A DNA stretch of 64,000 bases, from the NCBI RefSeq assembly GCF_000328685.1, contig NC_019974.1, positions 487,001-551,000 on the forward strand. Direction: 5' to 3'. The notes beneath the pieces are model-generated. The model had not been told where the DNA came from and searched no databases. It saw nothing but the letters and a program-made list of their open reading frames with translations. The first letter of the stretch is position 1. Every line of letters starts with the position of its first letter. Of the stretch, positions 43,859-63,160 are shown piece by piece. The stretch comes from Natronococcus occultus SP4 (GTDB taxonomy: Archaea > Halobacteriota > Halobacteria > Halobacteriales > Natrialbaceae). A program made the position numbers and the translations under genes.

Positions 43859-44647
43859 ATGCGAGACGTCTGTATCGTCGGCGGGGGCGTCGCTGGCCTC
43901 GCCGCATCGATCTTTACTGCCCGTGCGGGACTGGACACCCTCGTCGTCGACGGCGGCGAGTCGATCCTGGCGCGCAACGCCAGCCTCGAGAACTACCCCG
44001 GGTTTCCCGACGGGATCGACGCCCGTCGGTATCTCCAGCTCACGCGCGAGCAAGCCCGGAACGCGGGCGCCGAGTTCGAACTCGGCCGAGTGACGAGCGT
44101 CGAACCCATCGACAGCGCGGCTCCGTCGGAATCGCGAGGAGCCGGGGAACCCGGCGTCGAGACCGACCTCGGGCAAGGGTTCGTCCTCGAGACTGACGGC
44201 GGGGATCCGATCGAGGCACGGCGGGTAATCGCCGCCTCCTGGTCGGACAGCGACTACCTCGTTCCCCTCGACGTCGGGCGGCTCCAGCGCGGGAACAAAC
44301 ACTTCGTCAGCGTCGACGAGGGCGGCCGAACCGCCGTCGACGGCGTCTACGCGGCGGGCCGGATCGCCGACGAACCCCACCAGGCGATCGTCGCCGCCGG
44401 CCACGGCGCGAAGGTCGGCTTCGCGGTGATTCACGACGCCGACGTCGGCTTCTACCAGGACTGGGTCGTCCCCGACGGCTACTTCACGGGTCGGGGCCGC
44501 GAGGTGCCCCCGGGCTGTGAGGAGATCGACGACGAGGAACGGCGGCGACGCGACGAGCGAGCCCGGGAGACGATGCTCGAGGCACTGTCGGAGCCGCTGG
44601 AGGAACGGCCGACGATGCACCCGAGCGTCGAGCGGGACCGATCGTGA
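43859..44647 (+). CDS. Thioredoxin-reductase-like FAD oxidoreductase without CxxC
   Basis: This 262-residue flavoprotein has the FAD-binding motif CIVGGGVAGLAASIF (5-19), then NASLENYPGFPDGID and the second FAD contact VDGVYAAGRIADEPHQAIV. The size and blocks match the thioredoxin-reductase-like family but no CxxC redox pair is present, so it is not a classical reductase. The final bases overlap the NIS synthetase start (GTGA), so the two are co-translated. A possible job is supplying a reduced or hydroxylated precursor, but its chemistry is not readable. Confidence 0.8.
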   Translation: MRDVCIVGGGVAGLAASIFTARAGLDTLVVDGGESILARNASLENYPGFPDGIDARRYLQLTREQARNAGAEFELGRVTSVEPIDSAAPSESRGAGEPGVETDLGQGFVLETDGGDPIEARRVIAASWSDSDYLVPLDVGRLQRGNKHFVSVDEGGRTAVDGVYAAGRIADEPHQAIVAAGHGAKVGFAVIHDADVGFYQDWVVPDGYFTGRGREVPPGCEEIDDEERRRRDERARETMLEALSEPLEERPTMHPSVERDRS

Positions 44648-46782
44648 GTCCTCGTCGTCGTCGTCAGGTCGATGGCAAACCGGTACGCCTTCGAACGAGC
44701 GCCGAGCGTGAGACGCTGGGCGCCGCGACCGCGTACGCGCGAACGCACGGCCTCGGAACCCCGGTGGAGACGGCGTACCTCGCGGCGCTTCCGGACGCGC
44801 GCCGAGAGATCTGTCGCCGGCTCGTCCGCGGGCTGCTCCGCGGGCGTCCGGCGGCGCTTCCCGACGCCGCGTTCGTCGATCCGGCGACCCCCGCCGTTCC
44901 CGACGCACCGACACCCCTCGAGGCGCTGACCGGGGATCGGCTCCGCGCGCTCGTCGATCCGATTCCCGACGGCTGTCGTCGGCTCGCAGTGCTTCCGTTT
45001 CCGTCCTCGGAGACGGCACTGATCGCGCCGATCACGGCGAGACACGGCTACGATCGCTTCCGGTTCGTCGGTCCGACGTTCCGGTGGTCCTCGGCGGCTG
45101 CGGGACGAGACGGCGAGGACGCCGGGCGACTCACCCATCCCGTCGACCTCGTCCCGTTGCTCTCCGGCGAAGACGCGTTCGCCGACGCCGACCAGGCCGA
45201 ACGGATCCGGACCGAGCTCGCGGAGAGCGTCGCCAACCTCGCGCTGGCGCGGCTGGCGACGCCCGTCCTCGCGGGGGAGATCGAGGACCGAGTCGATTCC
45301 GCGGTCGAGTCGCCGCTCGAGGCCGTCGCGAGGGGCGTCCCGAGCGCCGACGCCGCGACCGCCTTCGAGCGGATCGTCACCGACGGCCACCCGTTCCATC
45401 CCGCCGGCAAGATCCGACGCGGGATGACCGCCGCTGACGGGCTGGCGTACGCGCCCGAGTTCACCGAGCGAATCGACCTGCGGTTCGTCGGCGTCGACCG
45501 GGAGTACGCCCTCGAGACCTGCACGGAGGGGTCCGCTGACGGTCACGGTCGGCTGACCGACCGCCTGTACGCGACGTTCGAGGGCCTCGAGGGCGCGCTC
45601 GAGCGTGCTGTTCCCGCGGGGCGGGCGGGTGAGGAGTACGCCGTCGTCCCCGTCCACCCGATGCAGTACCACCGGACGATTCCGGACCGCTACGCCGACG
45701 CGATCGAGGACGGACGGGTCGTCCCGATCCCCGACTACGCGACGCCGGCGACGCCACAGCTCAACCTCCGGACGGTCGTCCCCTACGCCACCGATCGCAC
45801 CGCCGACGGCCCGCTGCCCCACCTCAAGCTCGCGATTCCCGTCCAGACCACCAACGTCGTACGGACCCTGTCGCCCCACGCCGTGACGAACGGGCCGCAG
45901 GTAACCGACGTCGTCCGCGCGATCGAGCGCCGGGAGTCGCTCGAGGAGCTGGGGTTGCTCGCCGAGCCGGCGGCGACCTGCTACTCCCCGCCCGGCGGCC
46001 CCCACCCCGAAGGCGAGGCGTTCGACGACGCGCGTCACCTCTCCGGGCTGGTGCGACAGAACCCGTCGGCCCACCGGCTCGTCCCCGAGGACGGGATTCC
46101 GGTGGTGGCCTCGAGCCTCGTCGCCGACCTCCCGACGACCGGGCGCCCGCTCGTCCGGGAGCTGCTCGAGCGCTACGGCGAGCGGATCGACGCGGCGACC
46201 GTCGCCGACGCGGCGCGCGCCTTCCTCGAGCGCTACGTCGCGGTCGTCGTCCCCGAGCAGCTGCGCCTGCTCTCGGCGTACGGCGTGGCCCTCGAGAGCC
46301 ACCTCCAGAACAGCCTGGTCGTCTTCGACGGCCCCGAACCGGTCGCGACGCTGATTCGGGATCTCGGGGGCATTCGGATCCTCCGGAGTCGGCTCGCCGA
46401 GCGCGGGCTCGCGGTCGACCCCTACCCCGACTCGGACGTCGACGCCGCCGACGAGGCGGCCCTCTACCGGAAGCTCTACTACGCGCTCTTCCAGAACCAC
46501 CTGGCGGAGCTCGTCGCGACGGTCGCCAGCGAAACGCCCGTCGACGAACGGGACTGCTGGACCCTGGTCCGCGAGCGGTGCGATCGGGCCTTCGAGCGAC
46601 TGCGGGCCGAGGACGCGGCCTCGTCGGCGCGACTCGACCGCGACCGGGCGGCGCTGCTCGAGCAGCCGACGGACCACAAGGCCCTGACGGCGATGCGCCT
46701 GCGGGGCAAGCGCCACGAGTACGTGACCAGCCAGATCTCGAACCCGCTCGCCGCGGCTGGCCGGGAGCGGATCGTGCCGTGA
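44644..46782 (+). CDS. IucA/IucC family siderophore synthetase (NIS)
   Basis: This 712-residue NRPS-independent siderophore synthetase condenses a carboxylate (citrate type) with an amine or alcohol using ATP. Family blocks: GHPFHPAGKIRRGM, VVPVHPMQYHRTIP, QLNLRTVVPY, HLKLAIPVQTTNVVRTLSP then AVTNGPQVT, and the C-terminal FhuF-like helix region RLLSAYGVALESHLQNSLVV. It starts with GTG overlapping the preceding stop. No decarboxylase, monooxygenase or second NIS gene is next to it, unlike complete siderophore clusters. Confidence 0.9.
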   Translation: MSPRRRRQVDGKPVRLRTSAERETLGAATAYARTHGLGTPVETAYLAALPDARREICRRLVRGLLRGRPAALPDAAFVDPATPAVPDAPTPLEALTGDRLRALVDPIPDGCRRLAVLPFPSSETALIAPITARHGYDRFRFVGPTFRWSSAAAGRDGEDAGRLTHPVDLVPLLSGEDAFADADQAERIRTELAESVANLALARLATPVLAGEIEDRVDSAVESPLEAVARGVPSADAATAFERIVTDGHPFHPAGKIRRGMTAADGLAYAPEFTERIDLRFVGVDREYALETCTEGSADGHGRLTDRLYATFEGLEGALERAVPAGRAGEEYAVVPVHPMQYHRTIPDRYADAIEDGRVVPIPDYATPATPQLNLRTVVPYATDRTADGPLPHLKLAIPVQTTNVVRTLSPHAVTNGPQVTDVVRAIERRESLEELGLLAEPAATCYSPPGGPHPEGEAFDDARHLSGLVRQNPSAHRLVPEDGIPVVASSLVADLPTTGRPLVRELLERYGERIDAATVADAARAFLERYVAVVVPEQLRLLSAYGVALESHLQNSLVVFDGPEPVATLIRDLGGIRILRSRLAERGLAVDPYPDSDVDAADEAALYRKLYYALFQNHLAELVATVASETPVDERDCWTLVRERCDRAFERLRAEDAASSARLDRDRAALLEQPTDHKALTAMRLRGKRHEYVTSQISNPLAAAGRERIVP

Positions 46783-48979: not shown

Positions 48980-50917
48980 ATGGTGCAGGATCACAAGCAA
49001 TCTTCCATTGACGTCGATCGGCGACGATTACTGCAAGGTGCTGGTGGGGTAAGTATCGCAGCGGTTGCCGGTTGTCTGGGCGGGGACAACGGCGACGAGG
49101 ACGCGCCGATCCACGTTCGGCTGGAAGTCAACTCCGACAACGACGATCGGGTTCAGATGATCGACCTGATCTCGAACTCGCTGGAGGAGTCGGGCTACTT
49201 CACGACCGAAATCGAGACCTACGAGTTCAACGACTACACCCAGCGGGTGATGGACCCCGACTACGCCGAGAACGGCTACGTCCCCTGTATCGGGCTGTCG
49301 GGCACGTTCAACCCCGAGAGCTTCTGCCAGGCGCTTCACCACAGCGACAACATTGGGCAGTGCTGTAACTTAAACGGGATCAGCGACGACGAGCTCGACC
49401 AGATGATGGACGACGCTCGCTACGGTATCGACGTCGCCGACGACGACGAGGAGCGACGCGAGCGCTACGACGAGATCTGGGAGTACCTCGCCGAGGAACG
49501 GTACAGCTCGATCACGCACTTCGACCTGCAGGCCGGCGTGATGAACACCGACGTCCACGGGTTCCGACAGAACCCCTTCACCGAGAGCACGTTCGAATAC
49601 GGGCTCTACGCCCCCCAGGACGAGGTCGTCACCTGGATCGACGAGGACGCCCATCCCGACGAGACCGACCTCTCGGACCTCGAGGAGGGTGGCACCCTCC
49701 GGGCCGGCCTCACCGAGGACCCCGAGCTGTTCGATCCGCCGTACACGACCGGCGCGAACTCGACGATCGTCCAGGTGCTGATCTTCGAGCAGCTGGTCGT
49801 CAGCGACAGCGAGGGGAACCTCTACCCGTGGCTCGCCGAGGACTACGAACTCGTCGAGAGCCAGGACATCGACCGGACCGACTACGAGGAGTACATGATC
49901 GAGGTCGACGCCGACGAGGAGGGCGTCCTCGACACCGACGAGCAGGTCGTCGTCACTCACCCCGAGGACAGCCCGATCGAGGACGATACGGTCCGGGTCC
50001 TCACGCCCGAACAGGCCGGCGAGGCCGTCGAGGACGGCACCTTCGGGATGCAGTTCCAGTACGACCTCCACGAGGGAATCGAGTTCACCAACGGCGAGGA
50101 GCTCACGGCCGAACACGTCGTCGCGACCGCCGAGCGCTACGAGAACTCCGATCTGGAGGCCCAGACCTACGACTCGCTTTTGTACGCCGAGGAGGTCGAC
50201 GAGTACACCGTCAACCTCTACGCCCAGATTCCCGACGCCGAGGCCGAACGCGAGCTGCCGGGACTGTACATCCATTCGCTCGAGCAGGCCGACCTCGAGG
50301 GCGGCGAGCTCGACCCCGACGCGGGCAACGAGCCGATCGGGACCGGCCCCTACGAGCTCAGCGAGTACGAAGAAACCCAGTACATCGAGTACACCAAAAA
50401 CGACGACTACTGGCTCGAGGAGCTCGGCCTCGAGAGCAAGGAGTGGTTCGACGGCTCCGAGGAGTTCCCGGACGGCCCCGTCATCGACGAACTCGAGTTC
50501 GAGATCGTCCCCGACGACTCGAGCCGCGCCGGCGCGCTCCAGAGCGACGAGATCGACATGACCTACGGGCTGGCCACCGACGTCCTCGACGACTTCGAGG
50601 AGGACGACGACTACGTCATCGACAGCGTCGAGGCCGGCGGCTACGAGTACATCCAGTACCCGATGCACGTCGAGCCGTGGGACGACGAACGGCTCCGCCA
50701 GGCGGTCAATCATCTCATCCCGCGCGAGGAGATCGTCGACAACGTCCTCAACGGCTGGGCGCGTCCGGCCTGGACCGACCTGCCGGAGCTCGCCGAGGAG
50801 AACGGGACGACCGACGCCGAGGCCCTCGAGGAGGACATCCGGCCCCGCAACGAGTACGATCCCGAAACCGCAGCGGAGTTACTCGAAGAAGTGATCGACG
50901 ACTACGACCTCGAGTGA
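48980..50917 (+). CDS. Family 5 substrate-binding lipoprotein, apparent circular permutant (system 1)
   Basis: This 645-residue lipoprotein of an Opp/Dpp-type importer has Tat signal DRRRLLQGAGG and lipobox AAVAGC (Cys32). Residues about 43-231 look like the C-terminal lobe of the family (RLEVNSDNDDRVQMIDL, GLSGTFNPESF, GQCCN at 126-130, ELDQMMDDAR, then THFDLQAGVMNT). Residues about 237-645 contain the normal N-terminal start (GGTLRAGLTEDPELFDPPY, LIFEQLVVSD, YPWLAEDYE) and run to RPAWTDLP and a short AAELLEEVIDDYDLE end, just where the lobe found at the front would normally follow. Operon with the four genes after it; TATA at 48949. Ligand class: peptide-like. Confidence 0.88.
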   Translation: MVQDHKQSSIDVDRRRLLQGAGGVSIAAVAGCLGGDNGDEDAPIHVRLEVNSDNDDRVQMIDLISNSLEESGYFTTEIETYEFNDYTQRVMDPDYAENGYVPCIGLSGTFNPESFCQALHHSDNIGQCCNLNGISDDELDQMMDDARYGIDVADDDEERRERYDEIWEYLAEERYSSITHFDLQAGVMNTDVHGFRQNPFTESTFEYGLYAPQDEVVTWIDEDAHPDETDLSDLEEGGTLRAGLTEDPELFDPPYTTGANSTIVQVLIFEQLVVSDSEGNLYPWLAEDYELVESQDIDRTDYEEYMIEVDADEEGVLDTDEQVVVTHPEDSPIEDDTVRVLTPEQAGEAVEDGTFGMQFQYDLHEGIEFTNGEELTAEHVVATAERYENSDLEAQTYDSLLYAEEVDEYTVNLYAQIPDAEAERELPGLYIHSLEQADLEGGELDPDAGNEPIGTGPYELSEYEETQYIEYTKNDDYWLEELGLESKEWFDGSEEFPDGPVIDELEFEIVPDDSSRAGALQSDEIDMTYGLATDVLDDFEEDDDYVIDSVEAGGYEYIQYPMHVEPWDDERLRQAVNHLIPREEIVDNVLNGWARPAWTDLPELAEENGTTDAEALEEDIRPRNEYDPETAAELLEEVIDDYDLE

Positions 50918-50962: not shown

Positions 50963-51919
50963 ATGAGTTTACGACGTTTCATACTGAAGCGACTGTTGTC
51001 GATCGTTCCGATCCTGTTCGGCGTCTCGGTGATCACCTTCGCGCTGGTGCATCTCACGCCGGGTGATCCGATCAGCCAGATGGTCGCGACCAACCCCCAC
51101 GTGACCGCGGCCGACGAGGCCCAGATGCGCTCCCGGTACGGGCTCGACGGCCCGATCTGGGAGCAGTATCTGACCTGGATGGGGAACGTCCTGACCGGGG
51201 ACTTCGGCGAGGTCATCAGCTCCGGCCAGGACGTCTCCTCGGTTATCATCGCGCGACTTCCCGAGACGATCGTCCTCGGGCTGTTCGGCTGGGTGTTCGG
51301 TCTCGTGATCGCGATCCCGACCGGGATCTACGCGGCCATCAACAAGGACCAGCTCGCCGACACCGTCAGCCGCTTCGTCGCGCTGTCGGGCATCTCGATC
51401 CCGAACTTCTGGCTCGGCCTGATGTTGATCCTGATCGGCGCGCTCTGGCTGGAGATCTGGACGGTGCTACCGCCCTCGCGCCTGCCGCTGTACCATCCCG
51501 AGATGCTGTTCTATCTGATCCTCCCGGGGATCACGATCGGGACCGCTGCAGCGGCGAGTATCATGCGCGTGATGCGGACCTCGATGGCCGAGGAGCTGAA
51601 CAAGGAGTACGTCACCGCGGCGCGAGCGAAGGGGCTTCCCGAGCGACAGGTCATCCTCAAACACGTGCTGCGGAACTCGCTGATCTCGGTGGTGACGCTG
51701 GCGGCGACGCTGACCGCGAGCATCGTCGCCGGTTCGGTCGTCGTCGAGATGGTGTTCAACTGGCCGGGACTTGGCCGGGAGCTCATCCAGGCGATCAACC
51801 AGCGCGAGATCAACCTCATTATGGCGATCACGCTGTTTACCGGCGTGTTCATCGTCCTGGCGAATCTGCTAGCAGACATTCTGTACGCGGTTCTGGATCC
51901 GAGGATCAGATATGAGTAG
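50963..51919 (+). CDS. dppB: ABC transporter permease, DppB/OppB-like (system 1)
   Basis: This 318-residue inner-membrane permease of a peptide-type importer has six helices. It opens RRFILKRLLSIVPILFGVS, has the FALVHLTPGDPI signature, and the EAA loop EYVTAARAKGLPERQVILKH for ATPase contact, ending ILYAVLDPRIRYE. ATG 50963 begins it; an upstream in-frame TTG is not needed. It overlaps the next gene by 8 bp. Confidence 0.93.
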   Translation: MSLRRFILKRLLSIVPILFGVSVITFALVHLTPGDPISQMVATNPHVTAADEAQMRSRYGLDGPIWEQYLTWMGNVLTGDFGEVISSGQDVSSVIIARLPETIVLGLFGWVFGLVIAIPTGIYAAINKDQLADTVSRFVALSGISIPNFWLGLMLILIGALWLEIWTVLPPSRLPLYHPEMLFYLILPGITIGTAAAASIMRVMRTSMAEELNKEYVTAARAKGLPERQVILKHVLRNSLISVVTLAATLTASIVAGSVVVEMVFNWPGLGRELIQAINQREINLIMAITLFTGVFIVLANLLADILYAVLDPRIRYE

Positions 51920-52961
51920 CAAGGAACACACCGAACGCGGACGCATCCGAATCACCGGGTTCGACCCGGACCAGGTCCGGCAGCGCGATCCACTATCGGA
52001 CTGGACCGAGGAGAGTGGCGGCGAAACCGAGGGCCGGCTCGAACGGGCCTGGAAACGGTTCAAGCGCAACCGCTCCGCGCTGATTGGACTGCTCGTGGTC
52101 GGCGTCCTCACCCTGCTTGCGATCTTCGCTCGCCCGATATCGGTGATGGGGATGACGGTCCAACCGTTCTCGATCGCACCCTACGATCCGACGGCGATCA
52201 TGTACATGAACCCCGACTCGTCGGCGGGCGTCTACGACTCGCCGTCGCTTTCCCATCCGATGGGGACCGACGGCGACGGTCGTGACCTGTTCTCGCGGGT
52301 CCTGTACGGCGGCCGCTACAGTATCTCGATCGGCTTCATCGTCGTCGGGCTCAGCGCTACCTTCGGACTGGTATACGGGGCGATCTCGGGCTACTACGGC
52401 GGCTGGACCGACGAGATCCTGATGCGAATCGTCGACACCGTCTACGCGTTCCCGGGGCTGATCCTGGCGCTGATCATCGTCGCTACGCTCGGTGGCGGCT
52501 ACTGGCAGCTCGTCGCCGCGTTCGCGATCCCGGGCTGGATCACCTACGCCCGCCTCATCCGCGGCGAGGTCCTGACGATCAAGGAAAACGAGTACGTTAT
52601 GGCGGCGAAGGCGCTAGGTGCCCGCGATCGATCGGTGATTTTCAAACACATCGTCCCGAACGCGATGCCGCCGATGATCGTCTACGGGACGCTCAATATC
52701 GGGACCGTCGTCATCGGCGTTGCGGCGCTTGGCTTCCTCGGACTCGGGATGCCGCCGGGCACCGCCGAGTGGGGAACGATGCTCGACCAGACCCGGGAGA
52801 CGCTCATTCAGGGGCCCGGCGGTTCGATCCCCTGGTGGGCGACTGTCTTCCCCGGCGGGGCGATCTTCCTGTTCGTGATGGCGATGAACATGATCGGCGA
52901 CGGAGTCAACGACGCACTGGACGCCCAGGAAACCGGTATCGAAGGGCAGGGAGGTGGATAA
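51912..52961 (+). CDS. dppC: ABC transporter permease, DppC/OppC-like (system 1)
   Basis: This 349-residue permease partner has an N-terminal cytoplasmic segment of about 55 residues, a first helix (ALIGLLVVGVLTLLAIFA), the SHPMGTDGDGRDLFSRVLYG periplasmic motif, the EAA loop EYVMAAKALGARDRSVIFKH and the late helix LGFLGLGMPPGTAEWG. It overlaps dppB by 8 bp and ends one base before dppD. Confidence 0.93.
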   Translation: MSSKEHTERGRIRITGFDPDQVRQRDPLSDWTEESGGETEGRLERAWKRFKRNRSALIGLLVVGVLTLLAIFARPISVMGMTVQPFSIAPYDPTAIMYMNPDSSAGVYDSPSLSHPMGTDGDGRDLFSRVLYGGRYSISIGFIVVGLSATFGLVYGAISGYYGGWTDEILMRIVDTVYAFPGLILALIIVATLGGGYWQLVAAFAIPGWITYARLIRGEVLTIKENEYVMAAKALGARDRSVIFKHIVPNAMPPMIVYGTLNIGTVVIGVAALGFLGLGMPPGTAEWGTMLDQTRETLIQGPGGSIPWWATVFPGGAIFLFVMAMNMIGDGVNDALDAQETGIEGQGGG

Positions 52962-52962
52962 G

Positions 52963-54048
52963 ATGGCACTACTCGAAATCAATGACCTCACGGTGAAGTT
53001 CTACACGCAGGAAGGTGTCGTCACCGCCGTCGACGACCTCTCCTACCGCATCGAGCGCGGCGAGAAGTTCGGCGTCGTCGGCGAAAGCGGCGCCGGAAAG
53101 AGCGTCACCGCCCTCTCGTTGATGCGGCTCATCGAGAGTCCGGGTCGTATCGAGAGCGGCGAGATCCTGTTCAAAGGCGAGGACTTGCTCGCGATGAGCG
53201 AGGAGGAGATCCGGACGATTCGAGGCAACGAGATCGCAATGATCTTCCAGGACGCCCAGACGGCGTTGAACCCCGTCTACACCGTCGGCGAGCAGATCGC
53301 CGAGGCGATCCGTCACCACCTCGACTACGACGAGGCCGAGGCCCGCGAGCGGACGATCCAGTTGCTCGACACCGTCGGCATCCCCGAAGCCGAGTCGCGC
53401 TACTCCGACTACCCTCACGAGTTCTCCGGCGGGATGCAACAGCGAGCTGTGATCGCAATGGCGCTGTCCTGTGACCCCGACCTGTTGCTCTGTGACGAGC
53501 CGACGACGGCGCTCGACGTCACGATCGAGGCCCAGATCCTGGAGGAGCTCGAGGAACTCGCCGACGAGTTCGACACCGCGATTCAGCTCATCACCCACGA
53601 CCTTGGTGTCGTCGCCGAGGTCTGTGACCGGGTGATGGTCATGTACGCGGGCAGTCCCGTCGAGAAGGCGCCCGTCGAGGAGCTGTACTACGACCCGAAA
53701 CATCCCTACACGGTCGGGCTGATGAGCTCGATCCCCCGTGTCGGCGACGAGCGCGAGCGATTACAGACGATTCCGGGAACGATGCCGGACCTCGTCGAGC
53801 TCCCGCCTGGCTGTAGCTTCCATCCCCGGTGTCCGTACGCCGAGGACGTCTGCACCAAGCGCGAGCCGCCGCTGCTTGATCCCGAGACGGGCCGGGACGC
53901 GTCGGGCACGGACGCCGACCGCGCGGCCGCGTGTCTCGAGTACACCGGCGAGCTGCAGGAGGGGCTGGACTATTCCGTCGAGGTCGGCGACGGCCACGAG
54001 ACCCGTACCGACGCGACCGCGCCGAACCCGGAGGGTGAACGACGATGA
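52963..54048 (+). CDS. dppD: ABC transporter ATPase, DppD/OppD-like (system 1)
   Basis: This 361-residue ATPase has Walker A VVGESGAGKSVTALSL (about residues 38-53), Q-loop [18 protein letters not shown], signature [16 protein letters not shown], Walker [15 protein letters not shown] and the H-loop LITHDLG. The peptide-transporter C-terminal extension is present (GCSFHPRCPYAEDVC). ATG 52963 (MALLEINDLTVKFY) is chosen, one base after the permease stop. ATGA overlap with the next gene. Confidence 0.95.
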   Translation: MALLEINDLTVKFYTQEGVVTAVDDLSYRIERGEKFGVVGESGAGKSVTALSLMRLIESPGRIESGEILFKGEDLLAMSEEEIRTIRGNEIAMIFQDAQTALNPVYTVGEQIAEAIRHHLDYDEAEARERTIQLLDTVGIPEAESRYSDYPHEFSGGMQQRAVIAMALSCDPDLLLCDEPTTALDVTIEAQILEELEELADEFDTAIQLITHDLGVVAEVCDRVMVMYAGSPVEKAPVEELYYDPKHPYTVGLMSSIPRVGDERERLQTIPGTMPDLVELPPGCSFHPRCPYAEDVCTKREPPLLDPETGRDASGTDADRAAACLEYTGELQEGLDYSVEVGDGHETRTDATAPNPEGERR

Positions 54049-55421
54049 CCCGGCCGGACGAGGAGCCGATCCTGCGGGCCGAGAACCTGACGAAGTACTA
54101 CGACGCGAGCAGCGGATTCATCGACGGCCTGCTCGGCCGCACGAACTGGGTCAAGGCCGTTGACGGGATCGACCTCGAACTGTACGAGGGTGAGACGCTG
54201 GGCGTCGTCGGCGAGTCGGGCTGTGGGAAGAGTACGCTCGGCCGGTCGCTGTTGCGTCTGCTCGAGCCGACCGACGGCTCGGTCTACTACCACCAGCAGG
54301 TCGACGGCGGCGACCGACGCGAGGAAGTCGAGATCACCGAGCTCTCGAGTTCGGAGCTGCGAGATCTCCGCACCGACGTCCAGTACATCTTCCAGGATCC
54401 GTTCTCGAGTCTGAACCCACGGCTGACGGTCGGGGATATCATCGGCGAGCCACTGGACATCCACGACATCGCCGAGGGTGAGGACCGAACCGAACGGATC
54501 TACGAACTGCTCGAGACCGTCGGGCTCAGCCAGAGCCACGCCCACCGCTACCCCCACGAGTTCTCCGGGGGTCAGCGCCAGCGCATCGGAATCGCCCGCG
54601 CGCTGGCGGTCGACCCGGAGATCATCGTCTGTGACGAGCCCGTCTCGGCGCTCGACGTCTCGGTCCAGGCCCAGATCCTCAACCTGCTCGAGGATCTCCA
54701 GGAGGAGTTCGGCCTCTCGTATATCTTCATCGCCCACGACCTGAGCGTCGTCGAGCATATCTCCGATCGGATCGCCGTGATGTATCTCGGGGAGTTCGCG
54801 GAGGTCGGGACGACCGAGGAGGTGTTCTCGCCGCCCCACCACCCCTACGCCGAGGCGTTGCTCTCGGCGATCCCCGAACCGGATCCGCTCTGGCAGGGCG
54901 AACAGATCCTCCTGCCAGGAACCGTCCCGTCGCCGATGAACCCGCCCTCGGGCTGTCGGTTCCACACCCGCTGTCCCCGCATCATCCCGCCCGAGGACGT
55001 CGACCTGCCACAGGACGTCTGGCGGTCGATCGTCGACTTCAAGCTGCGGGTTCGGGGCGCGGAGGAGCTCGGGGCGATCACCGCCGTCGACGACGTCGAT
55101 GACGAGGCGACCGATCCCAACGCGCTCTCCCGCGAGGCGTTCGCGTCCTCGGTCCGCGAGGAGTTCGGCCTTCCGGAGCCCGTCGCCGATCGGAGCGCCG
55201 AGCAGGCGTTGAGCGAGAGTATCGACGCGCTTCACGCCGGCGAGTTCGACGCCGCCCGCGAGCGCCTCGAGGAGGCGTTCACCTCGCCTTGCGAGACCAC
55301 CGACCCCCACCAGGTTCCAACCGGCGAGACCCACGAGATCGCGTGTCTGCTGTACGACGACCGGTACGCCGAGGGCGAGTTCCGGACCGACGACGACGCG
55401 GGCGCCGTCGCCGACGACTGA
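54045..55421 (+). CDS. dppF: ABC transporter ATPase, DppF/OppF-like with extended C-terminus (system 1)
   Basis: This 458-residue second ATPase has Walker [18 protein letters not shown]-loop [17 protein letters not shown], signature [16 protein letters not shown], Walker [15 protein letters not shown] and H-loop [10 protein letters not shown]. The usual C-terminal oligopeptide region ([16 protein letters not shown]) is split by about 100 acidic residues, then closes with [11 protein letters not shown]. It ends the operon; the next gene has its own TATA-like CTTTAGTTTT. Confidence 0.94.
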
Positions 55422-55460: not shown

Positions 55461-56003
55461 ATGCGCCGGATCTACGAGTCCTCGGCCCTCCAGCGGGACG
55501 ACGACGACCAGTTCACCCCGCGGGAACGAGAGACCGAACCCCAGTCGCTGCGGTCGATCGACAGCACCGGGCTGAGCCGGCGGCTCGTTCCGGCGTGGCT
55601 CTCCCACCGAGCGATCTCGGTCGACGTCTCGACGCCCCGATCGACCTACCCTGTCGACACCGCCGTCCCCTTCCGGGTGACGATGCGAAACGCGATGCCG
55701 TTCCCGATCACGATTACGACCCGGTCGCCGATCCCCTGGCACTGGACCGTCGATGGGCTCACCGACGCCGCCGAAATATCGCTTCACGATCCGCCCGCGG
55801 AGCCCCAGGGGTTCCGGTTCGACCGCGGCGAGCGAAAGCGGTTCACGAAACGATGGCACCAGCGCTTTCGCGTCGCCGACGACGAGTGGGAGGCGGCCGA
55901 GCCCGGCACCCACACGATCGGCGCCGGGCTGAACGTCGCCGACGCCGCCAAGAAGGGACTGTACGACGAGACGACGATTACCATCGAAGCCGACGACGCT
56001 TGA
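55461..56003 (+). CDS. Conserved haloarchaeal protein of unknown function
   Basis: This 180-residue soluble protein has no family I can name. The middle (ISVDVSTPRSTYPVDTAVPF through PITITTRSPIPWHWTVDG) looks like a beta-sandwich; the C-terminal half has THTIGAGLNVADAAKKGLYD. It follows the first transporter operon by 39 bp, but a TATA-like CTTTAGTTTT at 55432-55441 sits 20-29 nt before the ATG and suggests separate leaderless transcription. Confidence 0.6.
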   Translation: MRRIYESSALQRDDDDQFTPRERETEPQSLRSIDSTGLSRRLVPAWLSHRAISVDVSTPRSTYPVDTAVPFRVTMRNAMPFPITITTRSPIPWHWTVDGLTDAAEISLHDPPAEPQGFRFDRGERKRFTKRWHQRFRVADDEWEAAEPGTHTIGAGLNVADAAKKGLYDETTITIEADDA

Positions 56004-57044: not shown

Positions 57045-58886
57045 ATGTCCGATAGTTCGGATGGTCAAGGTGTAGATCGGTCGCGTCGGAAGATGCTGGG
57101 GCTTCTCGGGGGAAGCGCCACCGTGGGGCTCGCGGGCTGTTCTGCTCTGCTCGATGGAGACGGGGGCGACGACGATGAGGTCGACGGTGGGGATCACGAA
57201 GTCGCCGAGCACGCCGACAAGGCACAGGCTGCCTGGGAGACCGTCGTCGAGAACCCTGGGCCGGACGAGGAAGACACCCGGAACGATGCCTACATCGAGA
57301 TCGAGGAGGCCGTCAGGGACGACATGGTGTTGCTCCCGCTGTACCACAGCAAGGGCGAGCGCTGGTGGTACGACTACGTCGACATTCCGGAGCTGGGTGC
57401 GCTCGGTAGCCACCACCAGCAGTACAACGAGGTCGAGATCGACGGTGACGACGAGCTGAACCTTCTCAACAGCACGTTCGACGAGCTGGATCCGATCATG
57501 TCGACCGACACCGCGTCGGGAACGGTTATCAACCAGCTGTACGAGACCCTAACTCACTACCCGAACGGCGTCGCCGAGGTCGAAAACCAGCTCATCGAGG
57601 ACGTCGAAACGTCCGAGGACAGCCTGGTCTGGACGTTCACCCTCCAGGAGGGGGTCCAGTTCCACGGCGGCGAGGAGCTGACGGCGGACGACGTCGTCTA
57701 CTCGTTCCGGCGGCTGGCCGAGTCCGAGTACAGCGAACGGGCGAACTTCATCCTCGGGACACCCGACGGGCTTGGAATCGAGTACGAGGAGACCGATGAC
57801 GGCGGCGTCGAACCGGACTCCCTGGGCGTCGAGGCCGTCGACGATCGGACCGTCGAACTGACGCTTCGCGAGCCGAACCCGGCGGTGCTCGACATTCTGA
57901 CTTACGACGGGTTCGCGATCGTTCCGGAGGGGATCGTCGGCGACGTCGAGGGGTACGACGGCGAGGTCGACCACGACGAGTTCCAGACCGAGATGGCAAA
58001 CGGGACCGGTCCCTTCGAGTACGACGAGTTCAATGTCGGCGAGGAGATGCGGGTCGTTCGTAACGACGACTACCACGGCACCGTTCCGAGCGTCGAGGCG
58101 GTCCACTGGGAGATCAACGAAGACCCCGAATCCATGTTCACTTACGTCATGGAGGGGAACGCCGACGTCTTCGAGAACAGCCAGATCCCCACCTCCCAGT
58201 ACGACGCGGACCTGATCGACGCCGAAGAGGACGACATGGGCCGCGAGGTCGGGACCTACGGTCCGTTCGAGAACGACGAGGAAGCCAACTACCTCGCGGT
58301 TCCCGAACTCGGGACCTACTACTTCGCCTTTAACGTCACGAACGTCCCTCGTCCCGTCCGGCAGGCGATCGCGTACGTCGTCGATCACGAGGAGCTCATC
58401 GAGGACATCCTCGAGGAACGCGGATTCGAGGCCTTTAGCTTCACGCCACCCCGGATGTGGCCGACCGGCGACGACGGCTACGACGACTGGGTCGACGAGT
58501 GGCCCTACGGCGCCAACGAGACCGACATCGAAGGTGCCCAGGACGTCCTCGACGAGACGGAGTACACGGAGGACGACCCCTTCGAGCTGACGGCCTCGAC
58601 CTACGAGTCCGCTCCCGAGTACGGCGAGATGGCCGAACTGATTCGACAGAAGCTCGGCGATCTGCCACTCGAGATCACCAACAACGAGACGCAGTTCTCG
58701 ACGCTGCAGGACCGCGGCGAGGACGGTGACCTCGAGATGTACTCGCTGGGTTGGGTCTGGAGCTGGCCGGACGTCGCGTACGGTCACTTCGGGTTCGAAC
58801 CGAAAAACACCGACACCTCCGAGATGCCGACCGACGCGACCGGCTACTACCTGGACTGGCAGGCGAACCTGGACGAACAGGCCTGA
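57045..58886 (+). CDS. Family 5 substrate-binding lipoprotein, apparent circular permutant (system 2)
   Basis: This 613-residue lipoprotein has a Tat-like signal RSRRKMLGLLGG and lipobox VGLAGC (Cys32). Right after a short acidic linker, residues about 58-137 look like the family C-terminus (AWETVVENPGP, AYIEIEEAVRDDMVLLPLYH, ERWWYDYVDIPELGALGS, QYNEV). From residue 138 the usual mature start follows (LNLLNSTFDELDPIMSTD, LYETLTHYP) with the core (GGEELTADDVVYSFRRL, GTGPFEYDEF, RPVRQAIAYVVDHEELI). The protein ends at YYLDWQANLDEQA, where the segment now at the front would normally continue. The break point is later than in the first system's protein. Confidence 0.88.
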   Translation: MSDSSDGQGVDRSRRKMLGLLGGSATVGLAGCSALLDGDGGDDDEVDGGDHEVAEHADKAQAAWETVVENPGPDEEDTRNDAYIEIEEAVRDDMVLLPLYHSKGERWWYDYVDIPELGALGSHHQQYNEVEIDGDDELNLLNSTFDELDPIMSTDTASGTVINQLYETLTHYPNGVAEVENQLIEDVETSEDSLVWTFTLQEGVQFHGGEELTADDVVYSFRRLAESEYSERANFILGTPDGLGIEYEETDDGGVEPDSLGVEAVDDRTVELTLREPNPAVLDILTYDGFAIVPEGIVGDVEGYDGEVDHDEFQTEMANGTGPFEYDEFNVGEEMRVVRNDDYHGTVPSVEAVHWEINEDPESMFTYVMEGNADVFENSQIPTSQYDADLIDAEEDDMGREVGTYGPFENDEEANYLAVPELGTYYFAFNVTNVPRPVRQAIAYVVDHEELIEDILEERGFEAFSFTPPRMWPTGDDGYDDWVDEWPYGANETDIEGAQDVLDETEYTEDDPFELTASTYESAPEYGEMAELIRQKLGDLPLEITNNETQFSTLQDRGEDGDLEMYSLGWVWSWPDVAYGHFGFEPKNTDTSEMPTDATGYYLDWQANLDEQA

Positions 58887-59020: not shown

Positions 59021-60075
59021 GTCGGTGGGGATACTTCGTTAGACGGCTTCTGTTGTCGATCCCCGTCCTGTTCCTGGTGTTGACGTTCATCTTCGCGCTG
59101 TTGCGGATGGGTCCGGTCGATCCGGTCGCCGCCAGGCTCGGTCCAGAAGCGACCGGGGCGGAAGCCGAGCGAATGCGCGAGCGACTCGGTCTCAACGATC
59201 CGCTCTGGGAGCAGTACGTCGACTTCGTCACCGACTTCCTGGTTCTCGATCTGGGCCAGTCCTGGGTCGTGTTCGCCGGCTGGGATGTCTCGTCGATCGT
59301 GATAAACTCGGGGCCACCGACGCTCTGGCTGGGCTTCTGGGCGATCCTGCTCCCGCTGTTTATCGGCATCCCGCTGGGGTTCTACGCGGGGCTTCGGCCG
59401 AACAGCTGGGGTGACTACACCGCCTCGGTCAGTGGCATCCTCTGGCAGGCGATGCCGAACTTCTGGCTGTGTATCATCCTGCTTGCCGTGTTGCGCCAGA
59501 CCCAGGGTGGCGGCTGGTTCGGCTTCGACTGGTATACGTTCGGGCCGGAGATCAGGAGTATCACCGGAACGCCGGATCTCGCCTTCCTCTCCTGGTCGAA
59601 CCTGGTCGGTCCCGTTCCGTATCCGACCGGAGTCGACTGGGGGGCACTCGCCGTCGACATCAAACTCATCCTGCCGCCCGCGCTGGTGCTTGGCTCCGCG
59701 TCGATGGCGGCCGAGTTACGTATCGGGCGGACGGCGATCCTCGAGACGATCAACTCGAACTTCGTCGAGACTGCCAGAGCGAAGGGGCTCAAAGAGCGGG
59801 CTATCGTCTGGAAACACGTCTTCAGGAACGCGCTAATCCCGCTGGTGCCGGTCATCACCAACGAGGCGTTCCTGCTGATCGGCGGCTCGGTCATCGTCGA
59901 ATCGATCTTCAACATCAACGGTCTCGGCAGGATCTTCTTCCTCGCGATGATCCAGGGTGATCTGCCGCTTGCCGGTGCGTTGCTGTTTATCTTCACGCTG
60001 ATCATCATCTTCCTGAACATCCTGCAGGACTTCCTGTACACGATCATCGATCCGCGAGTGGGGTACGAACGATGA
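59017..60075 (+). CDS. dppB: ABC transporter permease, DppB/OppB-like (system 2)
   Basis: This 352-residue permease has six helices: start MSRWGYFVRRLLLSIPVLFL, FALLRMGPVDPVAARLG, the EAA loop NFVETARAKGLKERAIVWKH and the end FLYTIIDPRVGYER. It is longer than the system 1 counterpart because of a periplasmic insert (about residues 160-215, GGGWFGFDWYTFGPEIRS and following). ATG 59017 overlaps the mini-ORF stop; its last codons overlap the next gene by ATGA. Confidence 0.92.
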   Translation: MSRWGYFVRRLLLSIPVLFLVLTFIFALLRMGPVDPVAARLGPEATGAEAERMRERLGLNDPLWEQYVDFVTDFLVLDLGQSWVVFAGWDVSSIVINSGPPTLWLGFWAILLPLFIGIPLGFYAGLRPNSWGDYTASVSGILWQAMPNFWLCIILLAVLRQTQGGGWFGFDWYTFGPEIRSITGTPDLAFLSWSNLVGPVPYPTGVDWGALAVDIKLILPPALVLGSASMAAELRIGRTAILETINSNFVETARAKGLKERAIVWKHVFRNALIPLVPVITNEAFLLIGGSVIVESIFNINGLGRIFFLAMIQGDLPLAGALLFIFTLIIIFLNILQDFLYTIIDPRVGYER

Positions 60076-61805
60076 ACACGAGAGCTACGACCGACGCGAG
60101 TGAATCGGATCCCGAAGAGACGCTGCTTCGCGAACGGGTCGTGGAGAACCCGGGCCCGGCCCTGTACTGGCTGGCCGGAGCCGCGGTGCTTGTCGCGCTC
60201 GAACTGGGACGTCTCGCCGGCTGGCTGACGGGGATCGGGTCGGCTATCGAGTTCGTGTTCGACATGATCGCCGCGATCCCCGGCTGGATCGCCGGCAACG
60301 TCGCCGACGCGACGACGCCGCTGGTCGGCTACCTCGTTAACGACGCGGTAACGCTGCTGTTGCTGTTCGGGATCGCCGCCGTGTTGCTCCGACTCGTTCC
60401 CTGGAGTCTCAGGGACCGGTTCGACGTCGGGACGCCACGAACGCGGGCCGTCCTCGAGCAGCTCGGCGTGACGGTCCTCCTGGCGGTCGTGCTGGTCGCG
60501 CTCCTGTTTACGCCGATCGGGGGACTCCTCAGAACCGCCGTCGTCACCCCCGTCGACCTGCTGTCGTCGCTTCCGTCGCTGACCAGCCACGAACTCATCT
60601 CGAATCAGGGCCACCGAACGCCCGACGGCGGGTGGGACGGAACCTTCCTCGGACTCTCGCCCGCAGTCGCGTGGGGCATTCGGGTCCTGCTCGTCTACGG
60701 CTATGCCTTCGCCGTCCTCGCCTGGGTCTGGAAGGGGTACAACGTCTTCCGCGATCACTACCGCCAGGCCGACTGGACGCCCCGGGACGACACGTTCGCC
60801 CGGTTCCGGAACCACTACTGGGGACTGTTCGGTCTGCTCGTCGTAGTGTTGTTCATCGTCACTGCTCTCTGGGCACCAGCCGTAAGCCCGGCCACGGCCG
60901 AGCAAAACATCTACTCGCCGTACTCCTACGAGGTACAGTACCTCGAGGACGGCGAGGTCGCCACGACGACGGTCGGGGACGCGAACCTCGGCAGCCAGTC
61001 CGACGGACAGAACACGATCGGGCCGATGAGCTACGACGACTACGATCGCTGGGCACCGTTTGGCACCACGCCGAACGGACAGGACTTGCTCACACACGTC
61101 GCCTACGGGGCCCAGACCTCGCTCGTGATCGGGCTGCTGGCGATCGGTCTGGGCGGACTGATCGCGGTCACGATGTCGCTGCTGACCGCCTACTACAAGG
61201 GTGCCGTCGACGTCCTGACCGTGGTCGCAAGCGACACGATCATCTCGATCCCGGCGTTCCTGCTGGTGATGATGCTGTCGGTGATCTTCGATCAGGGTGA
61301 TCACGTCCTCGCGGAGCCGCTCAACGGGGGTGTGCTCCTCGGGTTGATCTTCGCGTTCGTCTACTGGCCCGGGATGTGGCGCTCGATACGGGGGCCCTCA
61401 CTCCAGGTCGCCGAGGAGGAGTGGGTCGACGCCGCCAAGAGCTACGGCCAGACGCCGGCGAACACAATGCGTAAGCACATGGCTCCGTACATCGCCGGAT
61501 ACATCATGATCTACGGCTCGCTGCTGCTCGGCGGCGTTATCATCTTCACCGCCGCTCTCTCGTTCCTCGGCCTGGGTATCAACGCACCCACTCCCGAGTG
61601 GGGGCGGCTCATCAGCGACGGCGAGGCGTACGTCTCGACGTCGTCGTGGCACGTCGCGACGATCCCGGGACTGATGATCGTCCTCGTTGTCACTGCCTTT
61701 AACGCGCTCGGTGACGGGCTTCGCGACGCGATCGATCCCGAGACCGCAGCCGGCGACGCCAACACGGACGACACCGGTGCCGCGGCAGCCGGAGGTGGTG
61801 GCTGA
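60072..61805 (+). CDS. dppC: ABC transporter permease, DppC/OppC-like with long N-terminal membrane extension (system 2)
   Basis: This 577-residue protein is about 230 longer than ordinary DppC. The first 220 residues carry four or five extra hydrophobic segments (YWLAGAAVLVALELGRLAG, AVTLLLLFGIAAVLLRLV, GVTVLLAVVLVALLFTPIG, AWGIRVLLVYGYAFAVLAWV). The standard permease then starts with DWTPRDDTFARFRNHYWGLF, with TTPNGQDLLTHVAYG, EAA loop EWVDAAKSYGQTPANTMRKH and LSFLGLGINAPTPEWG. ATGA overlaps on both sides. Confidence 0.9.
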   Translation: MNTRATTDASESDPEETLLRERVVENPGPALYWLAGAAVLVALELGRLAGWLTGIGSAIEFVFDMIAAIPGWIAGNVADATTPLVGYLVNDAVTLLLLFGIAAVLLRLVPWSLRDRFDVGTPRTRAVLEQLGVTVLLAVVLVALLFTPIGGLLRTAVVTPVDLLSSLPSLTSHELISNQGHRTPDGGWDGTFLGLSPAVAWGIRVLLVYGYAFAVLAWVWKGYNVFRDHYRQADWTPRDDTFARFRNHYWGLFGLLVVVLFIVTALWAPAVSPATAEQNIYSPYSYEVQYLEDGEVATTTVGDANLGSQSDGQNTIGPMSYDDYDRWAPFGTTPNGQDLLTHVAYGAQTSLVIGLLAIGLGGLIAVTMSLLTAYYKGAVDVLTVVASDTIISIPAFLLVMMLSVIFDQGDHVLAEPLNGGVLLGLIFAFVYWPGMWRSIRGPSLQVAEEEWVDAAKSYGQTPANTMRKHMAPYIAGYIMIYGSLLLGGVIIFTAALSFLGLGINAPTPEWGRLISDGEAYVSTSSWHVATIPGLMIVLVVTAFNALGDGLRDAIDPETAAGDANTDDTGAAAAGGGG

Positions 61806-63160
61806 TGTCCCTCGAACAGTCCGCCACGGAGACCTCCGAGCGCGGAGAGCCGATCCTCGAGGTCCGGAACCTGCAGACCGCCTTCTTCACCGAGAAGGAG
61901 ACGATCCGAGCCGTCGACGACGTCGGCTTCGCTATTCGACCAGGAGAGACCGTCGGGATCGTCGGCGAGAGCGGTTCGGGCAAGAGCGTCACCGCCCGCT
62001 CGATCATGGGGCTGGTCGACTCGCCCGGTCGCGTTCTCGACGGGAGCAGCATCCGGTTCTCTCATCTCGAGACCGTCCGGGAGTACGCCGAGGCGTTCCC
62101 CGACCGGACCGTCGACCTCGAGTCGCTGCGAGCCGAGTACGACCCGGTCGAGCTGTTCGACCGGTCGGACGTCGACGTCGAACCGACGGACCTCGGACAC
62201 GAGCGAGCCAACGAGGTTCCCCTCGAGGACGTCGTGGCCGCCGGCTACGGCGACGTCCTCGGCGTCGACGGCGACGACTGCGTGTTCGTTACGGACGGCT
62301 CCCCGGCGTCGCCGTCCTCGATCGCGGAGGGGTTCGTCGAGCTCACGCGACTCAGCGGCGAGTCACAGCGACGCATGCGCGGTGGGCGGATCGCGATGGT
62401 GTTCCAGGATCCGCTAACGAGCCTCAACCCCGTCTACACGGTCGGCAACCAGATCAAGGAAGCGCTCCGTCTGCATCAGGGACTGCGCGGCGAGGCCGCG
62501 ACGCGGGAGGCCGCCGAGCTGCTCGAGGACGTTGGCATCCCGGACGCCAGACGGCGGGTCAACGAGTACCCCCATCAGTTCTCGGGCGGGATGCGCCAGC
62601 GGGCGGTGATCGCGATGGCGCTGGCCTGCGATCCGGAGCTGTTGATCTGTGACGAGCCGACGACGGCACTCGACGTGACGATCCAGGCCCAGATTCTCGA
62701 TCTACTCGCGGAACTACAGGAGAAGCGAGATCTCGCGATGATGTTTATCACCCACGACATGGGCGTCATCGCGGAGATCAGCCACCGCGTGAACGTCATG
62801 TACGCCGGCGAGATCGTCGAGACTGCGGGCGTCCACGACCTGTTCGCGGATCCGAGACACCCCTACACCCAGGGGCTGTTGCAGTCGATCCCGGGCCGAC
62901 AGGAGGGTGATCGACTGCAGACGATCGAGGGGAACGTGCCGACGCCCAATCAGCCGGCGACGTCCTGTCGGTTCGCGCCGCGCTGTCCGAAGGCGTTCGA
63001 GGACTGCGAGGCGGTCCATCCCGTCTCCGTCCCCGTCGAGGAGGGAGCGACCGACCACACCGCGGCCTGTCTGCTTTACCCCGAGGAGCTGCCGACCGAG
63101 GAGGCGGTCGCCAGACACCAGCGACGAACCGACGCCGAAACTCGAGGCGATACCGAATGA
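61805..63160 (+). CDS. dppD: ABC transporter ATPase, DppD/OppD-like with large insertion (system 2)
   Basis: This 451-residue ATPase has Walker [18 protein letters not shown]-loop [18 protein letters not shown], signature [16 protein letters not shown], Walker [16 protein letters not shown] and H-loop FITHDMG; the C-terminal peptide-transporter region is [14 protein letters not shown]. Between Walker A and the Q-loop there are about 100 extra residues (about 84-180, beginning after [10 protein letters not shown]) where relatives have only a short IRFDGEDLL-type hairpin. It overlaps its neighbours at single ATGA/GATG junctions. Confidence 0.93.

Follow-up and report, generated by a model that had tools for sequence, protein, structure and literature searches.

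Circular permutation of a family-5 substrate-binding lipoprotein from Natronococcus occultus and recurrent changes of chain order among its haloarchaeal relatives

Overview

P0001, a family-5 substrate-binding protein (SBP) of Natronococcus occultus SP4, begins its mature chain with the part that ends the chain in linear members of the family. An earlier note had proposed from the DNA letters that the protein is circularly permuted; linear orthologs of the opposite order and profile–profile alignment bear this out at the sequence level. It is highly probable that P0001 is a functional, lipid-anchored cluster C SBP, of predicted fold and function, whose gene was permuted within the haloarchaea. 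The permutation arose repeatedly, with at least five permuted clades among related proteins. Within the ortholog group of P0001 the order changed more than once, and it appears to have switched back to linear at least once.

Parts of P0001 and evidence for the exchanged order

The window (the whole stretch of DNA analysed, 64,000 nucleotides) carries the P0001 gene as part of a transporter operon, here called system 1. Its parts are as follows.

48980..50917, forward strand: P0001, circularly permuted family-5 SBP lipoprotein, 645 aa, system 1
48980..49075, forward strand: twin-arginine (RRR) signal peptide with a lipobox to Cys32 (...AVAGC), from the sequence
49103..49648, forward strand: moved segment B, residues about 42-223, profile positions 419-602
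49649..49687, forward strand: linker, residues 224-236 (...DETDLSDLE)
49688..50914, forward strand: segment A, residues 237-645, with the canonical start GGTLR...DP

The twin-arginine signal and the lipobox cysteine Cys32 are invariant in the orthologs, and an acidic linker follows them in P0001. In a linear family-5 protein, segment B corresponds to the second half of lobe 2 together with the end of the chain. The linker behind it bridges the former C-terminus and the former mature N-terminus, and it is similar to the linker at the mature N-terminus of linear orthologs (REEVDFADLQ). Segment A then runs to the loop after the helix AAELLEEVIDDYDLE, where the chain ends. The positions given in the earlier note (moved lobe at 43-231, usual start at 237, chain end at ...AAELLEEVIDDYDLE) were right to about 8 residues.

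Family membership is given by SBP_bac_5 (PF00496), which scored 185.8 bits against a gathering cut-off of 32.4. The best Pfam stretch covers residues 356-637 and has reached profile position 275 of 368 when the chain runs out; Pfam alone finds nothing on residues 1-240. Against a reference profile built from 35 linear haloarchaeal proteins, residues s8-191 of P0001 (mature numbering) matched profile positions 419-602 with 204 bits, followed by s192-614 on positions 20-421 with 540 bits, whereas linear proteins run against their own profile gave one or two colinear stretches without any exchange. Each fold segment therefore occurs once in P0001, the canonical linear order is absent, and the parts of the linear homolog are rotated, the cut point falling within the linear chain. 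The supposition that nothing was lost, only reordered, holds within a few residues when judged by the linear profile and the linear orthologs.

Independent alignments gave the same picture. Analysis with hhalign returned complementary template ranges of 362-546 and 23-360 with probabilities of 99.9 and 100. In alignments to solved linear proteins, AppA (1xoc) residues 71-310 corresponded to P0001 348-599 and AppA 361-507 to P0001 45-200, while HbpA (3m8u) residues 107-314 corresponded to P0001 382-603 and HbpA 341-505 to P0001 34-209 (i-E 2.4e-4). An AlphaFold model of P0001 computed on a 7-row alignment had a mean pLDDT of 40.9, too low for a confident structure. Two findings had been named beforehand as ones that would speak against permutation, and neither was encountered in the sequence comparisons: the C-terminal lobe of the family has its homologous counterpart in the N-terminal 190 residues, and P0001 contains no incomplete second domain.

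Linear and permuted orthologs share one operon

Orthologs were sought in 61 genomes from the family and 194 from the class. The search for the same order in haloarchaeal genomes, which the earlier note had recommended, yielded permuted orthologs that align with P0001 from end to end without a change of order (54-93% identity), the 93% being reached in Natronococcus spp.; named genomes with this order include Natronococcus amylolyticus, Halobiforma haloterrestris and Halostagnicola. Linear orthologs were also retrieved, among them WP_247995043.1 of Halocatena salina, annotated 'ABC transporter substrate-binding protein'. Two of them, L021 and L022, consist of the equivalent of P0001 223-645 followed directly by 41-223, joined exactly at the cut and 54-61% identical. 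Permuted and linear members are 54-73% identical, depending on the pair, and the N-terminal part of P0001 shares 53-73% identity with the C-terminal part of its close linear orthologs. In the sister pair formed by the permuted L048 (genome G103) and the linear L062 (genome G120), identity is 72.7% in both segments and the signal peptides are homologous.

Permuted members share a linker with the motif W-x-[DN]...TDLSDL-EGG, in which a linear C-terminus (..AWVNRE, ..YLERDE) is combined with residues resembling the linker at the mature N-terminus of linear proteins (REEVDFADLQEGG). The linker of L062 is NG-rich; that of most other linear members is of the form DR..VD..LQEGG.

The remaining genes of system 1 follow P0001 directly.

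50963..51919, forward strand: permease, DppB/OppB type (BPD_transp_1), syntenic in all orthologous operons
51912..52961, forward strand: permease, OppC type (BPD_transp_1 and OppC_N)
52954..54048, forward strand: ATPase (ABC_tran and oligo_HPY)
54045..55421, forward strand: ATPase (ABC_tran and oligo_HPY)
55461..56003, forward strand: 180-aa protein without a Pfam family, last gene of the operon

OppB/OppC-type permeases and oligo_HPY ATPases are the neighbours expected of a family-5 SBP, and the order SBP-permease-permease-ATPase-ATPase is common to permuted and linear orthologs of P0001. The 180-aa protein, 44-67% identical, ends nearly every operon examined. Upstream of the transporter genes, positions 44644-46782 encode an IucA/IucC-type siderophore synthetase with an FhuF-like C-terminal part.

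The suggestion that a displaced lipid anchor might change docking on the permeases found no support, since both orders occur in the same operon and the permeases are about equally conserved: identity to the permB of the window is 77-82% beside permuted and 73-84% beside linear orthologs. In the partner-gene tree, the neighbouring genes show no division by SBP topology. The same permeases and ATPases stand beside either order, and transport therefore very probably proceeds as usual; judging from this synteny, chain order is probably nearly neutral for transport. A flexible acidic linker between lipid and protein would let either end be tethered, which would account for such near-neutrality.

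Chain order changed more than once in the ortholog group

The history of the order was followed in a 47-sequence tree, for which all chains were brought into one order and the segments aligned separately; trees were computed without a mixture model. L048 and L062 were sisters in the joint tree (100/100), in the tree of segment A (100/100) and in that of segment B (100/89), and their neighbouring permeases and ATPases were sisters as well (99/98). Because the SBPs and their partner genes share this relation, the SBP changed order within an inherited operon.

A single clade of all permuted members was rejected (AU p 1e-4 for the joint data, 0.0018 for segment A alone and 0.018 for segment B alone), and the order must therefore have changed more than once in this group; the unconstrained tree requires three changes. 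One permutation followed by one return to linear order in L062 was not rejected (p 0.128), nor were the permuted sequences as one clade once L062 was left out (p 0.178). The common linker type of the permuted members favours one origin in this group, and the NG-rich linker of L062, so unlike that of other linear members, favours a return to linear order. The nesting of linear L062 among permuted proteins indicates that the change is reversible.

A second permuted protein with a different cut site

System 2, further downstream, contains a second permuted SBP.

57045..58886, forward strand: P0002, circularly permuted family-5 SBP, 613 aa, system 2, cut at a different site
57189..57434, forward strand: moved segment of P0002, residues about 49-130, profile positions 515-593, 46 bits
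57438..58871, forward strand: remainder of P0002 in the usual order, residues about 132-609, profile 32-519, 390 bits
59017..60075, forward strand: permease
60072-61805, forward strand: second permease, by sequence
61805-63160, forward strand: ATPase, by sequence
63157 to the window end (64000), forward strand: ATPase, by sequence

P0002 scored 214.5 bits against PF00496 (cut-off 32.4). Its linear orthologs are 55-60% identical in the main part and carry the small piece at the C-terminus, where identity is 48-55%. The permuted members form one clade (FastTree support 1.0; 100/99 in a second tree). At 577 aa, the second system 2 permease is unusually long, and it has extra N-terminal transmembrane-like segments.

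Distribution and cut sites

Five of the eight family-5 SBPs in this genome are permuted (P0001, P0002, L006, L007 and L008). The last three belong to the large group D, present in 57 of the 61 genomes of the family. Single members of group D gave weak matches for the moved lobe (2-26 bits); profiles of the group placed it on template columns 353-519 with probabilities of 90.6-97.0, and the main part on columns 31-362. The genes for the permuted L006 and L007 lie close together (G000 contig C1, about 1.007 and 1.010 Mb), and each precedes a membrane protein resembling a PAP2-type phosphatase; no permease gene was seen beside them in the short stretches read.

Across a sample of 24 haloarchaeal genomes, the permuted layout was found in 41 of 105 family-5 matches (about 39%), counted as profile matches that end no later than position 288 and have the main lobe C-terminal, with P0002 added; some of the 41 were judged by position alone, their N-terminal part being too diverged for a single-sequence match. 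Two further haloarchaeal proteins with early-ending Pfam matches, L195 and L196, were ruled out as permuted and are linear with insertions. The large insertion, of about 100 residues, lies between two parts of lobe 2 (profile gap 384-414), near the cut position of other members. Outside the Halobacteria, none of 47 matches in a sample of the phylum was permuted by this criterion, which would miss cuts of the P0002 type; the only full-length early-ending match outside the class, L238 (G329), is linear with an insertion. A scan of viral contigs found no relatives.

A cross-group tree of 61 representative sequences contained at least five permuted clades (A, B, C1, C2 and D) and eight order changes, six of them forced by well-supported branches; the exact number of events is uncertain because the deep branches are long. 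On a linear template of 550 columns, the cuts fall between columns 360 and 362 in clade A, at about 362 in D, between 329 and 354 in C1, at about 340 in C2 and between 450 and 457 in B. These make three or four cut sites, all in the part corresponding to lobe 2 by the boundaries of AliD (PMC11192437), which may mean selection or structural constraint.

Predicted fold and origin

In cluster C SBPs both chain ends lie in lobe 1, and lobe 2 forms a single uninterrupted insert; in AliD, lobe 1 comprises residues 29-296 and 583-617 and lobe 2 residues 297-582, and the first and last stretches of the chain both lie in domain I of lobe 1 (PMC11192437). In alignments the end of P0001 falls near DppA residue 350 and that of P0002 near residue 448, both inside lobe 2, these positions being extrapolated past the aligned ends. 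The permuted chain would fold into the ordinary two-lobed trap, with the short linker connecting the old C- and N-termini in lobe 1 and the new termini lying in a loop of lobe 2. Lobe 1 would then be continuous and lobe 2 split, and the lipid tether would sit on lobe 2 instead of lobe 1. P0001 is predicted to feed the same DppBC/DppDF-type transporter as its linear orthologs.

The most likely origin is a tandem duplication or fusion of the gene followed by loss of the inner signal and the spare parts, because the inter-lobe linker resembles the C-terminus of a linear protein joined to the start of a linear mature chain. Among the proteins examined, none was an intermediate carrying the moved part twice. 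One candidate footprint of duplication, an overlap of 28 profile positions in L083, proved to be a low-complexity NG-rich linker.

Interpretation and alternatives

We tentatively propose that permutation of cluster C SBPs is recurrent, reversible and peculiar to haloarchaea, reflecting either an easy mutational route or favoured tethering at lobe 2, so that chain order may be a switchable trait; as a whole, this reading stands somewhat below an even chance. An adaptive explanation, in which moving the anchor from lobe 1 to lobe 2 alters docking or mobility of the SBP and haloarchaea selected the change repeatedly, is rather unlikely. It is consistent with the placement of every mapped cut in the lobe 2 part, with the number of clades that made the change and with the strong enrichment in Halobacteria (41/105 against 0/47 outside the class), but the even conservation of the permeases, the undivided partner genes and the reversibility indicated by L062 all argue against it.

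Gene replacement by distant transfer, without any change in place, could also produce mixed topologies, given that the group trees are not fully resolved, that haloarchaea exchange genes readily and that linear and permuted homologs coexist in some genomes, such as G035. For G103 and G120, however, the SBP segments agree with the four neighbouring transporter genes on the sister relation, which makes transfer improbable. The early end of the Pfam match and the unmatched residues 1-240 would suit a truncated SBP fused to a domain from another gene; the identity of the N-terminal part to the C-terminal part of linear orthologs leads us to reject this for P0001, and with the trees of both parts agreeing on the sister pair it is scarcely credible. 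An assembly or sequencing artefact is excluded because the same order, collinear over the whole length at 54-93% identity, recurs in independent assemblies of a dozen genomes and in further families.

Comparison with known systems

By sequence family, operon type and lipoprotein signal, P0001 resembles AppA, DppA, OppA, HbpA and NikA (PF00496, cluster C), and it differs from linear family-5 members in that the last about 180 residues come first (about 80 in P0002). Standard profile annotation is blind to this: the Pfam match breaks off early and leaves the moved lobe without annotation. Many haloarchaeal SBPs could therefore be mistaken for truncated proteins or for proteins with an unknown N-terminal domain.

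As a rule, natural circular permutants are ancient and their relatives have diverged. The present orthologs, about 73% identical, with the same operon and partner genes and opposite chain orders, constitute a natural experiment, which permits a direct test of how chain order and lipid-anchor position bear on folding, docking and transport in an ABC importer. Circular permutation by duplication is known from saposin/swaposin and the DNA methyltransferases. The haloarchaeal change is of the same type, although here no intermediate is seen and an apparent return to linear order is. Type I and type II SBP folds are related by domain dislocation, in which strands are reordered within the two-lobed architecture. 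That dislocation is ancient and lies between fold types, whereas the haloarchaeal change is recent and lies within orthologs; the relation between the two fold types is touched on in PMC9815098 and PMC10601554.

No permuted family-5 SBP and no permuted haloarchaeal SBP was found in the literature, most subscription journals lying outside the coverage. The nearest precedent found is Tp0684 (TpMglB-2) from Treponema pallidum, a naturally permuted glucose-binding protein assigned to 'Type Ic / Cluster Bc', whose authors remark that permuted members tend to be tethered proteins (PMC4990184). TpMglB-2 and P0001 are alike as naturally permuted, lipid-anchored ABC SBPs. TpMglB-2 has the type I fold and is an MglB-like protein of cluster B, whereas P0001 is not of cluster B and matches PF00496 (cluster C). 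The permuted part of TpMglB-2 is poorly conserved, at 13% identity, and its homologs occur mainly in treponemes and Gram-positive bacteria (PMC4990184); the moved part here retains 50-73% identity to close linear orthologs. Compared with TpMglB-2, the haloarchaeal SBPs also show several cut sites, and linear and permuted orthologs standing in a sister relation.
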